Positions 19,088-24,117 of a stretch of 64,000 bases of DNA are shown piece after piece (the stretch's first letter is position 1; every line of letters starts with the position of its first letter). A program made the position numbers and the translations under genes. The stretch is from Tieghemostelium lacteum (lineage: Eukaryota; Evosea; Eumycetozoa; Dictyosteliales; Raperosteliaceae). The notes beneath the pieces were generated by a model. The model was not told the DNA's origin, made no database searches, and was given only the letters and a program-made list of their open reading frames with translations. Location of the stretch: positions 620,001 through 684,000 of the forward strand of contig LODT01000006.1 in the NCBI GenBank assembly GCA_001606155.1, written 5' to 3'.

Positions 19088-20818
19088 TTAATAGTTTATT
19101 GATCTCTTTCGTTTTCTAAGTAGATATCTATCTAGAACTTTACGTAAGGTTTTATCCTTTAATTTAACTTTTAGAGTGTGTAATGAAGGATTTGATTTTA
19201 AGGCTACTTCAAAGTCATTTAGAGGAGGTAACTGTGAAATATTACTTTGTGGTGCATTCCATCCAATGTGTTTTAGAGTGTGATTGTTCGTGATGAGTCT
19301 AGTTAATAGTTGAATATATTCACTCTTTTTCTCTCTGTCTTTGGAATTAATGGAAAAAACAAAATATTCCAATTGTTGGGTTTCTGGAAGACATAGAGTA
19401 TCAACTAGATGATTAAGATGCTCTAATGAACAATATGCAGCACTGATTGTTATTTTTGAGAATTTATGGATCATTAGGATTTTAACGATGGCATCAATAT
19501 TGAAATCACTGTATTTGATATCTAATTCCTTTAATGTGTTATTCAATAAAATGAATTTATATAAATTTAATAAGGCTTCATTTGCTAAGATGTAGTGTGG
19601 GAACATGTAACTACAGGATATATAAAGAATCTCTAGCTTTGGTAGTTTTAAATCTAAAAGTTTACTAGAATGTATTGACATCATTTCTCTGAGTTCTAAA
19701 GATCCACATTGTGTATGACAATCTTTTACCTCTTGTAATGAGAGCTCTTGACTGAAATTTATAATGACATGTGTGAGATTTGAAGTACCTTTGAAATGAA
19801 TTTTATCTTCTATATCACGGAGCTCAATTCCTTCAAAATCTACAGCTATACTAATGTCCTCTAAAGTATTGTTTTCAACATAGACTTTATCGACTCCTTC
19901 TGGGAAGATAACTTTAAATACAGTGATTTCAACGTGCTTTAGTGTCTTTGTTTGGTTGAAACATTTTACAAATGATTCAATTGGTATGATGGAATCTTCA
20001 GTGAAATCTAAGATATTCAAGTACTCTAGAGAATGGCAATTGGGAATTGCATTCTCAATGATACTTTCAAATCCAGATTGTGGTTGATTTTGACTAAAAA
20101 CAATCTCATTAAAACTTAATTCTTCTAGTTTGATGAGTTTTAGTAGAGTTTGGTTTACATCGTCTGATGTTAACACGGTGTTGCACAATATAAGTGATTT
20201 CAGTTCGCTGAATACAGTAATAGAGCACAGATCTTTTACAACAGATGGTGAAGCTCTATCTGAGTTACTTTCAATTTTAAAAGAATTCAAGTTTTCTGAC
20301 TTTCTAAAAAGTGTGGTATAATTACTTAAATATAATTGAAAATTTGATTGATACCAATTTGAAGTATTCAATATAAATACGCTAAGATTCTTTGAGACAT
20401 CATCTGAAAGTATTCGTTTTGGATTTTCAGGGTTGTTGTAATAGTTTGGATAGTATTCAATCTCTCTGAGTATTGGTGATGGGTAAACTATATCTATTAT
20501 ATCCGTAGTTACAATAGAGTACTTATAAACATTATTTCTAAGATTATCATACTTTTTATAATTCTCTAAAGATCTCTCCCCATTCAATTCAATTCGAAAG
20601 TGTAGTTGATTTTTATCAATAACTTCTTGATATTTAATAAAGTCTTTATCGTTCAAAATTAAAACTTCTTTACCATAAATAATCTTAGGTACCACTTCTC
20701 TATACCATTCCCTACAAACCAATTTCAACCGTAACAATAAATCAAAATACCCAGGTGTATTTCTATAAAAATATCCTAAATAGTTTACAATTTTAATAAT
20801 TAAATACCTCTGTAACAT
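19088..20818 (-). CDS. F-box/LRR-like family protein
   Basis: This single-exon protein has 576 residues. The first ATG of the open frame is at 20818 (a GTG precedes it), giving MLQRYLIIKIVNYLGYFYR. The N-terminal F-box-like region contains RLKLVCREWYREVVPK, which two nearby relics (9412-9561 and 10855-11007) echo. Irregular leucine-rich repeats fill the rest, with blocks such as LEILYISCSYMF and LKELDIKYSDF. A basic tail (RYLLRKRKRS) ends the protein and may be a nuclear signal. It is a divergent paralogue of the gene at 14780. The probable role is substrate binding in an SCF ligase, inferred from fold only. The 3' end lies 25 bases from the end of the small Ser/Gly-rich gene. Confidence 0.87.
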   Translation of the reverse strand: MLQRYLIIKIVNYLGYFYRNTPGYFDLLLRLKLVCREWYREVVPKIIYGKEVLILNDKDFIKYQEVIDKNQLHFRIELNGERSLENYKKYDNLRNNVYKYSIVTTDIIDIVYPSPILREIEYYPNYYNNPENPKRILSDDVSKNLSVFILNTSNWYQSNFQLYLSNYTTLFRKSENLNSFKIESNSDRASPSVVKDLCSITVFSELKSLILCNTVLTSDDVNQTLLKLIKLEELSFNEIVFSQNQPQSGFESIIENAIPNCHSLEYLNILDFTEDSIIPIESFVKCFNQTKTLKHVEITVFKVIFPEGVDKVYVENNTLEDISIAVDFEGIELRDIEDKIHFKGTSNLTHVIINFSQELSLQEVKDCHTQCGSLELREMMSIHSSKLLDLKLPKLEILYISCSYMFPHYILANEALLNLYKFILLNNTLKELDIKYSDFNIDAIVKILMIHKFSKITISAAYCSLEHLNHLVDTLCLPETQQLEYFVFSINSKDREKKSEYIQLLTRLITNNHTLKHIGWNAPQSNISQLPPLNDFEVALKSNPSLHTLKVKLKDKTLRKVLDRYLLRKRKRSINY

Positions 20819-20957: not shown

Positions 20958-21629
20958 TTAGTTGTCATCATCGTCAGTCAAACAAGCTGGGTGAACAGAT
21001 TGAGAGTTGGTGTCGTTTGGACCTGGGTTACAGTAGTTTTTGAAGAGGGAGTTAGTGTTTTCTTCCAAGATACCACCAATGATTTGAGCTGGGACGTATT
21101 CACCAAAATCGTTTAGCCCATAACCCATTGAGTTGATGACTTGAGATTCAATGAGAATTTGAGATTGGCAGTGATTGCAATAGAGGAATTTAATGGAGGA
21201 ACCAAAGATGATTTTAGAGTATCTGTTCCACATGGCAGCTGATTGACACATTGGACATGATTCACCAGTAGTGTACAAATAGAAACCAGTCCAGTCAAAG
21301 AGACCGTAGATGGAAGAACAGTTTTGCATAACAACAATTTCACCGTGTTGGGTCATATCTTTCTTAGCACCTACAGCATTGGTATTGATACAGATGGTTT
21401 GACCAGAGGTGGCATTGACGACAGAGGAAGCAAATACTGAACCTTTAGAAACGGCATGATCGATAATTTCTTTCATTTTGGCTTCATGGAAAAGTCTTTC
21501 GGATTGTCTAAGATCTTTTGGTCTGTAGACATAGGATGGATCGATTTCAACCCATGGTGCTTTATATTCTTTAGCAGCTGATAAAGCAACAATGGCAGCT
21601 AATATTAATAAAATAGCAGTAGATTTCAT
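20958..21629 (-). CDS. Secretory-pathway deaminase-fold protein (CMP/dCMP or guanine deaminase type)
   Basis: The protein has 223 residues in one exon. Residues 1-19 are a clear signal peptide ending in ALSAA, which is unusual for this fold. A zinc-dependent deaminase core follows. His95-Gly-Glu97 stands where H(A/V)E is usual, and TGESCPMC supplies Cys125 and Cys128 in the PCxxC position. The AAMWNRYSKIIFGSS helix-strand matches the guanine deaminase/TadA side of the family. The zinc ligands and the proton-shuttle Glu are present, so activity is plausible. Ala-to-Gly in HAE and Pro-to-Ser before CPMC are departures from the consensus. Extra Cys residues and a C-terminal Asp tail (TDDDDN) follow. 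The substrate could be an extracellular or lysosomal nucleoside or base. Codon use is stronger in C and G than in neighbouring genes, which hints at high expression. Confidence 0.88.
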   Translation of the reverse strand: MKSTAILLILAAIVALSAAKEYKAPWVEIDPSYVYRPKDLRQSERLFHEAKMKEIIDHAVSKGSVFASSVVNATSGQTICINTNAVGAKKDMTQHGEIVVMQNCSSIYGLFDWTGFYLYTTGESCPMCQSAAMWNRYSKIIFGSSIKFLYCNHCQSQILIESQVINSMGYGLNDFGEYVPAQIIGGILEENTNSLFKNYCNPGPNDTNSQSVHPACLTDDDDN

Positions 21630-22428: not shown

Positions 22429-24117
22429 TCAAGTATCTTTATTAACTGTGATTTTACAATATTTTGGTATTATACATTTGGAAAGAGGGTTATAGTCGTG
22501 AATATGGAGTTGTCGTAGATAGGGTGGCAGGAGAGTGTATGAGAATTTTTGTTGATATGCATAGTTTTTATGTAATTTTAAGATTTTTAGGGATTGGGGT
22601 AAATGCTTAATTAGACTTTGGAAATGGTTACCAAATTCAAGAGTTTGAAGGTTTGGTGGAAGATCACCTTCCTCAATGATATTATTAAAATCACTTGGCA
22701 GTGTAAGGTGTAAGAGTGATATTGGAAATAGATTCTTTTGTTTAATGTTAATGTTACCATTTCTGAGAATCAGAGTTACAATACCATTGTTAAGTGTAAT
22801 TGGACCAATAGAAGTTATAGAAAGACTACCAAAATAGGCTGTTTTCAGTTTAGGTGGTAAATTTGAAATAAATGCGCTTTTGAATTTAAGGGATTCCATG
22901 TGAAGGTAATTTAAATTGGGGAGCTCATTTGTTGGTATAGAATGGTTAAATGAAGTACTATAGTTCATTAGGTATTCTAAAGTGGTAGGAAGTGATTTTG
23001 GTTCAATAACAGAATTAAAGAACCCAAAAATCAGTTTCTTTAAATTTCCAGGTAAATGACCTGGTTTAAGTGGATGATTATAGTTGAGTAAATGAAGAGT
23101 TGTTATAGACTGTGGAAGCATACCTTCACTTAGTGGGTAGTTGAATCCGTGTAATTCTAGAGTTTCAATAGTATCAGGAAACATACCTGGTACAATAGGT
23201 GAATCAAAGTTTCTGAGTATTAATGAAGTCAATGTAGAAGGTAATAGTAACGATTCTATTTGCATTTGTATTGGCACTAGTTTTTGTATATCCATTTTTA
23301 GAGATTTTAGACCTTTTGGTAATAACCCACAAAATTCAGGTGACCATCTAACCCAAACAATAGGTAGACTTAAATTAGTCAAAGAGGGTGGGATTCTACT
23401 ATCTAGTAGATGATCATAAGTGTACCCAAGTGTAAGAGACTCTAAACCATTGTGTAAAGCACCAATCTCAAACTGTGGACTATCTAGACAAGTCAAGTTT
23501 TTCAAAGTCTTTGGTAAAACACCTACTTGTATAGAATGTCTATAATCTTTCAGAAGTTTAAGAGATACCAATGGTTCAACAAGGTCACCAACCTTCAAAG
23601 GTTCGGTGAAATACATTGAAAGGTCCGTTAAAGAAGGTGGTAGAATCTGTGGTAGAGTGTAGTCTAGATTATAAATCTTACTCTTACACTCTGAGACCAG
23701 TTTAGTAACAGTTGCCGGTATTTGTCCTGGTGAGAACTTGTATAGGAAATATTGACCTAGTACCAATGTTGTCAAATTAAGTGGTAGTATATACAAACTA
23801 TTTCTAGTACTGTAATTGATAGTCATATGTTCAACCTCAATACTATTCAAAGGATTCATTTCTTTGTAATGAGTTTGCTGATTATCATTAATGGTCAGTG
23901 TTTTGAATTTCTTTGGTAAGGTGTTGTAATTATATTTAAACATTCTATATTGTTTCTTCTTTTTATAAAAGAAATCCAATGGATAATCCATAAATGTCAT
24001 TTTATCTATGAATTTATATAACCCTTTACAACTACATAAAAAATATAGTACATCCTGTCCACTTTCAAGTTGATGAGTAATTACCTTTATCACATATAAT
24101 GGTAAAGGAAATGACAT
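22429..24117 (-). CDS. FNIP-repeat protein with F-box-like N-terminus
   Basis: This single-exon protein has 562 residues. The N-terminus (LPLYVIKVITHQLESGQDVL, then YFLCSCKGLYKF) parallels that of the gene at 16612-18423, including the C(K)xLY helix. From about residue 105 to 530 there are FNIP-type repeats with LPxSLxxLxLxxxFNxPI spacing (for example FNYPLSEGMLPQSITTLHLL and YNHPLKPGHLPGNLKKLIFG). The C-terminal cap is CIIPKYCKI. It is probably an SCF substrate receptor by analogy. It is a clear paralogue of the other FNIP genes in this window, but too diverged to be a recent local copy. The frame is intact. Confidence 0.93.
   Translation of the reverse strand: MSFPLPLYVIKVITHQLESGQDVLYFLCSCKGLYKFIDKMTFMDYPLDFFYKKKKQYRMFKYNYNTLPKKFKTLTINDNQQTHYKEMNPLNSIEVEHMTINYSTRNSLYILPLNLTTLVLGQYFLYKFSPGQIPATVTKLVSECKSKIYNLDYTLPQILPPSLTDLSMYFTEPLKVGDLVEPLVSLKLLKDYRHSIQVGVLPKTLKNLTCLDSPQFEIGALHNGLESLTLGYTYDHLLDSRIPPSLTNLSLPIVWVRWSPEFCGLLPKGLKSLKMDIQKLVPIQMQIESLLLPSTLTSLILRNFDSPIVPGMFPDTIETLELHGFNYPLSEGMLPQSITTLHLLNYNHPLKPGHLPGNLKKLIFGFFNSVIEPKSLPTTLEYLMNYSTSFNHSIPTNELPNLNYLHMESLKFKSAFISNLPPKLKTAYFGSLSITSIGPITLNNGIVTLILRNGNINIKQKNLFPISLLHLTLPSDFNNIIEEGDLPPNLQTLEFGNHFQSLIKHLPQSLKILKLHKNYAYQQKFSYTLLPPYLRQLHIHDYNPLSKCIIPKYCKITVNKDT

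Follow-up and report, generated by a model that had tools for sequence, protein, structure and literature searches.

A putative secreted zinc deaminase and its family in Tieghemostelium lacteum, with pterin or folate as the favored substrate

The window analyzed here is a 64,000-nucleotide stretch of the genome of Tieghemostelium lacteum (D. lacteum below), in which positions 20958–21629 of the minus strand hold an intact, intronless gene running from ATG to stop through 223 codons. Open-frame reading and comparison of its flanks with those of related copies mark this single exon as the complete coding sequence of a 223-aa protein. The protein starts MKSTAILLILAAIVALSAA, which is its strongly hydrophobic stretch: the Kyte-Doolittle mean is 3.48 for residues 6–16 and at most 1.46 for any 11-residue stretch from residue 31 on. 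This mean, a helix over residues 2–19 in the structural model, and paralogue leaders that vary but remain hydrophobic point to a signal peptide of residues 1–19 (21573–21629, minus strand), with cleavage probably after LSAA; minus its leader, the protein is 22.8 kDa. In a control of 25 distinct ATG open reading frames (ORFs) of 200 or more amino acids, taken from the window and other loci and omitting three spliced family members whose exons are each too short, nine reached 2.7 near the start; seven of these belong to the deaminase family described below and two are other secretory-looking ORFs, while the remaining 16 did not exceed 1.76. An earlier note on this DNA had read a signal peptide followed by HGE and CPMC motifs, and all of these are confirmed in the 223-aa frame, the leader by its hydrophobicity. 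The neighboring ORFs, also on the minus strand, encode an FNIP-repeat protein of 562 aa (22429–24117; 5e-42) and a 576-aa protein (19088–20818) with no Pfam match at E up to 0.01.

The mature deaminase domain, assigned to residues 20–216 (20982–21572; all features here are on the minus strand), is marked out by a PF00383 match at residues 57–143, by the model, and by its dN/dS. HGE (residues 95–97; 21339–21347) is aligned with H53-A-E55 of Bacillus subtilis guanine deaminase (GuaD, 1wkq) and, by analogy with the deaminase superfamily, presumably supplies the zinc histidine and the catalytic glutamate. ESCPMC (residues 123–128; 21246–21263) contains the zinc cysteines C125 and C128, each present in all ten known family genes, and W134 (21228–21230), aligned with GuaD W92, is a tryptophan in all ten family genes and in 80 of the 80 best bacterial relatives. 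The other cysteines found in 10/10 family genes are C80 (21390–21392; Cys too in L032, L034, L035, and L039), C104, which with N103 belongs to an N-C-S/T sequon likewise seen in 10/10 (N103-C104, 21318–21323), C151-x-x-C154 (21168–21179), C200 (21030–21032), and C216 (20982–20984). Six of the eight invariant cysteines are accordingly free for disulphides, as expected outside the cytosol, and may pair with one another. The sequon itself may be incidental, NC being present in bacterial relatives as well.

The deaminase fold recognized in the earlier note holds in profile search, where PF00383 matches the window protein above its curated cut-off (E 1.7e-9) and MafB19-deam also exceeds its own (1.3e-7). 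With the window protein as query, phmmer returns a solved TadA as top match (E 5.9e-8). An AlphaFold2 model built from the window protein and 71 bacterial relatives has a mean pLDDT of 87.1, and Foldseek matches it with TadA (7.0e-10), plant guanosine deaminase (1.1e-9), Nitrosomonas guanine deaminase (3.8e-9), and yeast cytosine deaminase (9.8e-8); GuaD (1wkq), Nitrosomonas NE0047, and plant guanosine deaminase (7dbf) have their fold in common with the model. The PF00383 match and the model with its Foldseek matches place the window protein in the zinc-dependent cytidine deaminase (CDA) superfamily, with serine replacing the proline before CPMC. This replacement, found in eight of the ten family genes (the other two have Pro), and HGE for HAE (10/10) are family-wide traits and not peculiar to the window gene. 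Taken as a claim by itself, it is highly probable that the window gene encodes a secreted zinc deaminase.

A search of the genome (23.33 Mb in 43 contigs) revealed at least ten genes of this family, comprising the window gene and nine relatives. The nearest, C35, is 96% identical to the window protein, and four others lie in tandem on C31 (75–95%). Paralogues C4b and C42 have one phase-1 intron each, at the same place, which the window gene lacks; C13 has one intron at a different place, and C30 is a further paralogue. Three of the ten genes were spliced by hand. A hydrophobic leader, HGE, and the eight invariant cysteines are found in all ten. The earlier proposal of a secretory-pathway deaminase is supported by these leaders and by the predicted signal peptide of a D. 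discoideum relative, DDB_G0292096, so that a leader is carried by ten family genes of one genome and by this protein, as described for it in PMC4920372.

Over residues 21–216, the window gene and its nearest paralogue differ with dN 0.002 and dS 0.29, and comparison of the mature domain with further intronless copies gave dN/dS values of 0.023/0.49 and, for the most distant, 0.153/1.01. The leader of the same closest pair has changed faster (dN 0.26, dS 0.45 over 20 codons), its hydrophobicity being kept. By these rates the mature domain is under strong purifying selection, and because it is constrained while the leader varies yet stays hydrophobic, the family copies look like working genes. 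Homology between the window gene and C35 spans the ATG to 6 bases beyond the stop, and in four of the five intronless copies other than the window gene it begins no more than 9 bases from the ATG and ends no more than 47 bases past the stop. Such borders could be left by retroposition or by an old segmental duplication whose AT-rich flanks have since diverged, and either origin may apply.

Family members differ in their C-termini. A CBM49 domain was matched at the C-terminus of C4b (E 1e-8) and C30 (E 4.9e-16) and was absent from the window protein, C42, and C13, the three others scanned; the remaining five copies stop shortly past the deaminase domain or close with Ser-rich sequence. In C13 a Pro/Thr linker leads into a hydrophobic C-terminal tail that, by eye, resembles a GPI signal. 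Two further observations concern single members: C4b (L018/L015, C4:753 kb) has a His-rich, possibly metal-binding stretch, HEGHTRSHHHH, directly past its signal peptide, and the tandem paralogue C31a (L022, 1728–2495) has a long Ser-rich C-terminal tail in which O-glycosylation is possible.

The closest relatives among the matches listed are bacterial HGE deaminases with twin-arginine-type leaders, from Roseibium, Roseovarius, Obscuribacterales, Polynucleobacter, and others. Bacterial sequences were chosen for their similarity and with the help of two peptide patterns, HGE being named in one and TTGE[SP]C[PA]M in the other; of the 587 matches listed, 502 were confirmed and the best 80 kept. 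Because the patterns named these motifs, the high share of both among the bacterial rows, such as HGE in 75 of the best 80, is partly selected. In a first tree all ten amoeba rows group together (100/98) within a clade of 46 rows (97/99). In a second tree, from which L073 and the TAD2 row were omitted as long branches, the wider group received 98/98. Transfer of a family gene from bacteria to the amoeba is likely, judging from these trees. Direct descent from the Roseibium group was considered and not adopted: the best tree unites amoeba and Roseibium rows (99/94), yet an arrangement in which 35 exported bacterial rows form a clade excluding the amoeba rows survives the AU test (p 0.149), and long branches meet at the amoeba/Roseibium junction.

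Two adjacent arginines with a hydrophobic stretch behind them, as in twin-arginine export leaders, occur in 32 of the 36 bacterial rows of the amoeba-containing clade vs. 9 of the 44 other rows, which makes export a likely trait of most of the branch; a looser RR pattern recovers 33 of the 36, both being custom patterns and not a Tat predictor. ESC in place of EPC is seen in 13 of the 36 exported bacterial rows, in none of the 44 others, and in 8 of the 10 amoeba rows. Identity over the best segment is 28–39% for the 36 bacterial rows, and C151-x-x-C154, C200, and C216 of the dictyostelids are absent from the 28 exported rows aligned, several of which show one Cys, shifted by a column, at the C151-x-x-C154 site. 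Three exported relatives compared with NCBIfam gave only below-cut-off matches (TadA, anti-phage dCTP deaminase, and ComEB). Among mobile elements, 5 phage and 35 plasmid records matched weakly, none spanning 80% of the query, and neither of two scans of viral contigs gave a confirmed relative. L058 and L061, Clostridia relatives that fall outside the exported clade, have a hydrophobic N-terminal stretch that lacks the RR pair, and given these, such deaminases may have gained export on more than one occasion.

Features of the active site bear on the substrate. The positions of GuaD F26, N42, H53, E55, C83, C86, and W92 match in the secreted dictyostelid family, and F26, N42, and W92, which we take to form the substrate shell, are kept in all ten amoeba rows. 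In the rows for guanosine deaminase and TadA, the W92 position is Leu. D114 of GuaD, presumably a substrate-contacting residue, is kept in none of the family genes, where it is replaced by Q (seven), N (two), or S (one), and thus the family's pocket differs in part from the guanine deaminase one. The family further departs from GuaD in its leader, its additional cysteines, and the Gly at the position of Ala54, as in yeast cytosine deaminase. When the window protein was combined with 28 exported rows, the resulting profile ranked guanine deaminase first (3.3e-23), with a small lead over TadA (5.6e-22). A larger profile, built from the same protein plus 71 bacterial rows, some of them from outside the exported clade, matched guanine deaminase (2e-41) and guanosine deaminase (7.1e-37). 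A seven-row amoeba-only profile placed TadA (1.3e-13) slightly ahead of guanine deaminase (3e-12), and the single window sequence and Foldseek both rank TadA first. These comparisons suggest, with modest certainty, a guanine-deaminase-like pocket in the secreted family. The guanine-deaminase branch deaminates 2-amino-4-oxo-pyrimidine rings, and guanine, pterins, and folate all contain this ring. With guanine, pterin, or folate as the substrate, the match to the active site and to dictyostelid biology would be no worse than with the nucleic-acid digestion or defense suggested in the earlier note.

The secreted HGE family accounts for 10 of the 13 places found in a PF00383 profile search of the genome. 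The three others, by eye TAD2-like (C19), TAD3-like (C33), and cytidine-deaminase-like (C29), have no leader in the frames read. PF01979 was found at six places, and no leader was seen by eye in the four with a readable start (C40, C1, C38, and C2; the starts on C42 and C18 were unread). PF00962 was found at four places in three stretches, of which the ADGF-type one on C42 carries a leader and the two on C29 have unread starts. Among PF00383, PF14437, PF01979, PF07969, and PF00962, a leader was therefore seen in two kinds only, the HGE family and the ADGF-type adenosine deaminase. The genome also has seven places matching PF19086, in line with the seven terpene synthase genes counted with PF03936 in D. 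lacteum, whereas five other species have 1, 2, 9, 12, or 19 (PMC6156593).

An extracellular folate deaminase of Dictyostelium is said to have been defined biochemically by Bernstein in 1981. Pterin deaminase activity is known from D. lacteum, and 8-azaguanine, a guanine-deaminase ligand, has served as an inhibitor of the dictyostelid folate deaminase; a search of open-access papers found none linking 8-azaguanine with Dictyostelium. The dictyostelid folate deaminase is both secreted and found at the cell surface, with a molecular weight of ~40,000 (PMC4794234), and its gene was described as “yet to be cloned” in a 2021 review (PMC8616412). It resembles the leader-bearing family in being a secreted deaminase, and a match between the two is proposed here. 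As to size, C4b is 39.6 kDa when its first 19 residues are removed, vs. 22.8 kDa for the window protein, which is off unless dimeric; as to the surface form, C13 has the hydrophobic tail, identified by eye, that would be expected for membrane anchoring. The aggregation signals are a pterin in D. lacteum and folic acid in D. minutum (PMC3341216), and pterin or folic acid is likewise stated to be the signal of some group 3 species (PMC10445921).

These considerations lead to the reading favored here, to which we give a probability of roughly four in ten as a whole explanation: that the window gene encodes a secreted, disulphide-bearing, guanine-deaminase-like zinc deaminase whose preferred substrate is pterin or folate. 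The window protein would enter the secretory pathway and act extracellularly or in the lumen of the phagosome. Zinc would be held by His95, Cys125, and Cys128, and Glu97 would shuttle protons while the zinc-bound water displaces the ring amino group and ammonia is freed. The most likely substrate would be a free compound with a 2-amino-4-oxo-pyrimidine ring, pterin or folate being favored, and the enzyme would thereby destroy a chemoattractant, namely bacterial folate or, in D. lacteum, the pterin aggregation signal. An exported guanine-deaminase-like enzyme, kin to the twin-arginine-exported enzymes of bacteria, would in this way have come to shape folate gradients during feeding. The family can tentatively be put forward as a candidate extracellular pterin/folate deaminase of slime molds. 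Since D. lacteum aggregates to pterin, an enlarged set of secreted deaminases could plausibly serve as its acrasinase and clear the aggregation signal, and it is conceivable, though we would not bet on it, that the family is the dictyostelid folate/pterin deaminase described as uncloned in 2021, multiplied for this role to at least ten genes; the link between family size and pterin signal is based on one genome. Folate deaminase could instead belong to a family outside those searched or to one with an unread start.

The main rival to a pterin or folate deaminase, and one that we regard as a serious contender at odds only slightly below those of the favored reading, is a phagosomal or extracellular deaminase of nucleobases or nucleosides (guanine, guanosine, or cytosine type), which would digest bacterial nucleic acids and salvage nitrogen. 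The leader, the guanine-deaminase-like active site, and the bacterivore host all agree with it, as do the relatives with export leaders in bacteria, for which we know of no role in pterin signaling. The loss of GuaD D114 speaks against it, and it leaves the gene for the secreted folate deaminase unexplained. No recurring partner gene was seen by eye in 13 of the 80 bacterial neighborhoods, a result that helps neither the nucleobase nor the pterin reading. The D. discoideum CDD protein DDB_G0292096 (Q54DP5) is among the four major proteins reported on secreted multilamellar bodies, which are produced during bacterial feeding (PMC4920372), and this fits digestion equally well. In the same source it has, besides its signal peptide, a cytidine/deoxycytidylate deaminase region and a carbohydrate-binding domain, a layout like that of C30 and C4b and unlike that of the window protein, which lacks the last of these; from this layout, it is probably an ortholog of the family.

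The location of DDB_G0292096 on membrane bodies (PMC4920372) and the CBM49 domain of two of the ten members would also agree with a secreted protein of structural or carbohydrate-binding function, built on the deaminase scaffold, that has lost enzyme activity. We consider this quite improbable: the zinc ligands and the catalytic Glu are all kept in 10/10 family genes, dN/dS of the mature domain is very low in the intronless copies, and most of the members, as detailed above, either gave no CBM49 match (window protein, C42, and C13) or end soon past the deaminase domain or in Ser-rich sequence. A mutator or defense enzyme with RNA or DNA as its extracellular or phagosomal target is very improbable. 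This reading would draw on the common superfamily, on TadA being among the best matches, and on the secreted deaminases of fish, SNAD, for which such a role in immunity has been proposed (PMC11004436). Against it, the window protein has W134 and F66 where the TadA row has Leu and Ile, and it scores 26.1 bits with the TadA NCBIfam equivalog model, the cut-off of which is 150. Fish SNAD1 has a signal peptide and the deaminase superfamily in common with the window protein (PMC11004436) and differs in being AID/APOBEC-like; the six Pfam families that the window protein matched up to E 10 included no SNAD or APOBEC model, in a listing from which HMMER filters discard most matches above 0.1.

A folate or pterin deaminase gene would be of wider interest, as the model in which cells steer by self-generated gradients gives a central place to a secreted deaminase that breaks down folate (PMC4794234). 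A family of ten secreted deaminases in a species that aggregates to pterin offers a short list of candidates for this enzyme. If the substrate proves to be different, the family still marks a branch of exported deaminases common to bacteria and social amoebae.

Within the exported clade, Val replaces the general active-site Asn (GuaD N42) in 11 of the 36 bacterial rows. The nine of these that were read (L036, L037, L038, L040, L042, L044, L046, L048, and L050) come from Obscuribacterales/Melainabacteria-like or other MAGs, and one carries the title Actinobacteria.

The second leader-bearing deaminase kind of this genome, ADGF/ADA2, is adenosine-specific and belongs to a different family, PF00962, from the secreted HGE enzymes. 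It is also extracellular in dictyostelids (PMC12711200), and the copy found here is the one on C42. Elsewhere in PF00962, a single open frame of 737 codons (L131; C29:42231–44354, minus strand) contains two adenosine-deaminase-like matches in tandem.
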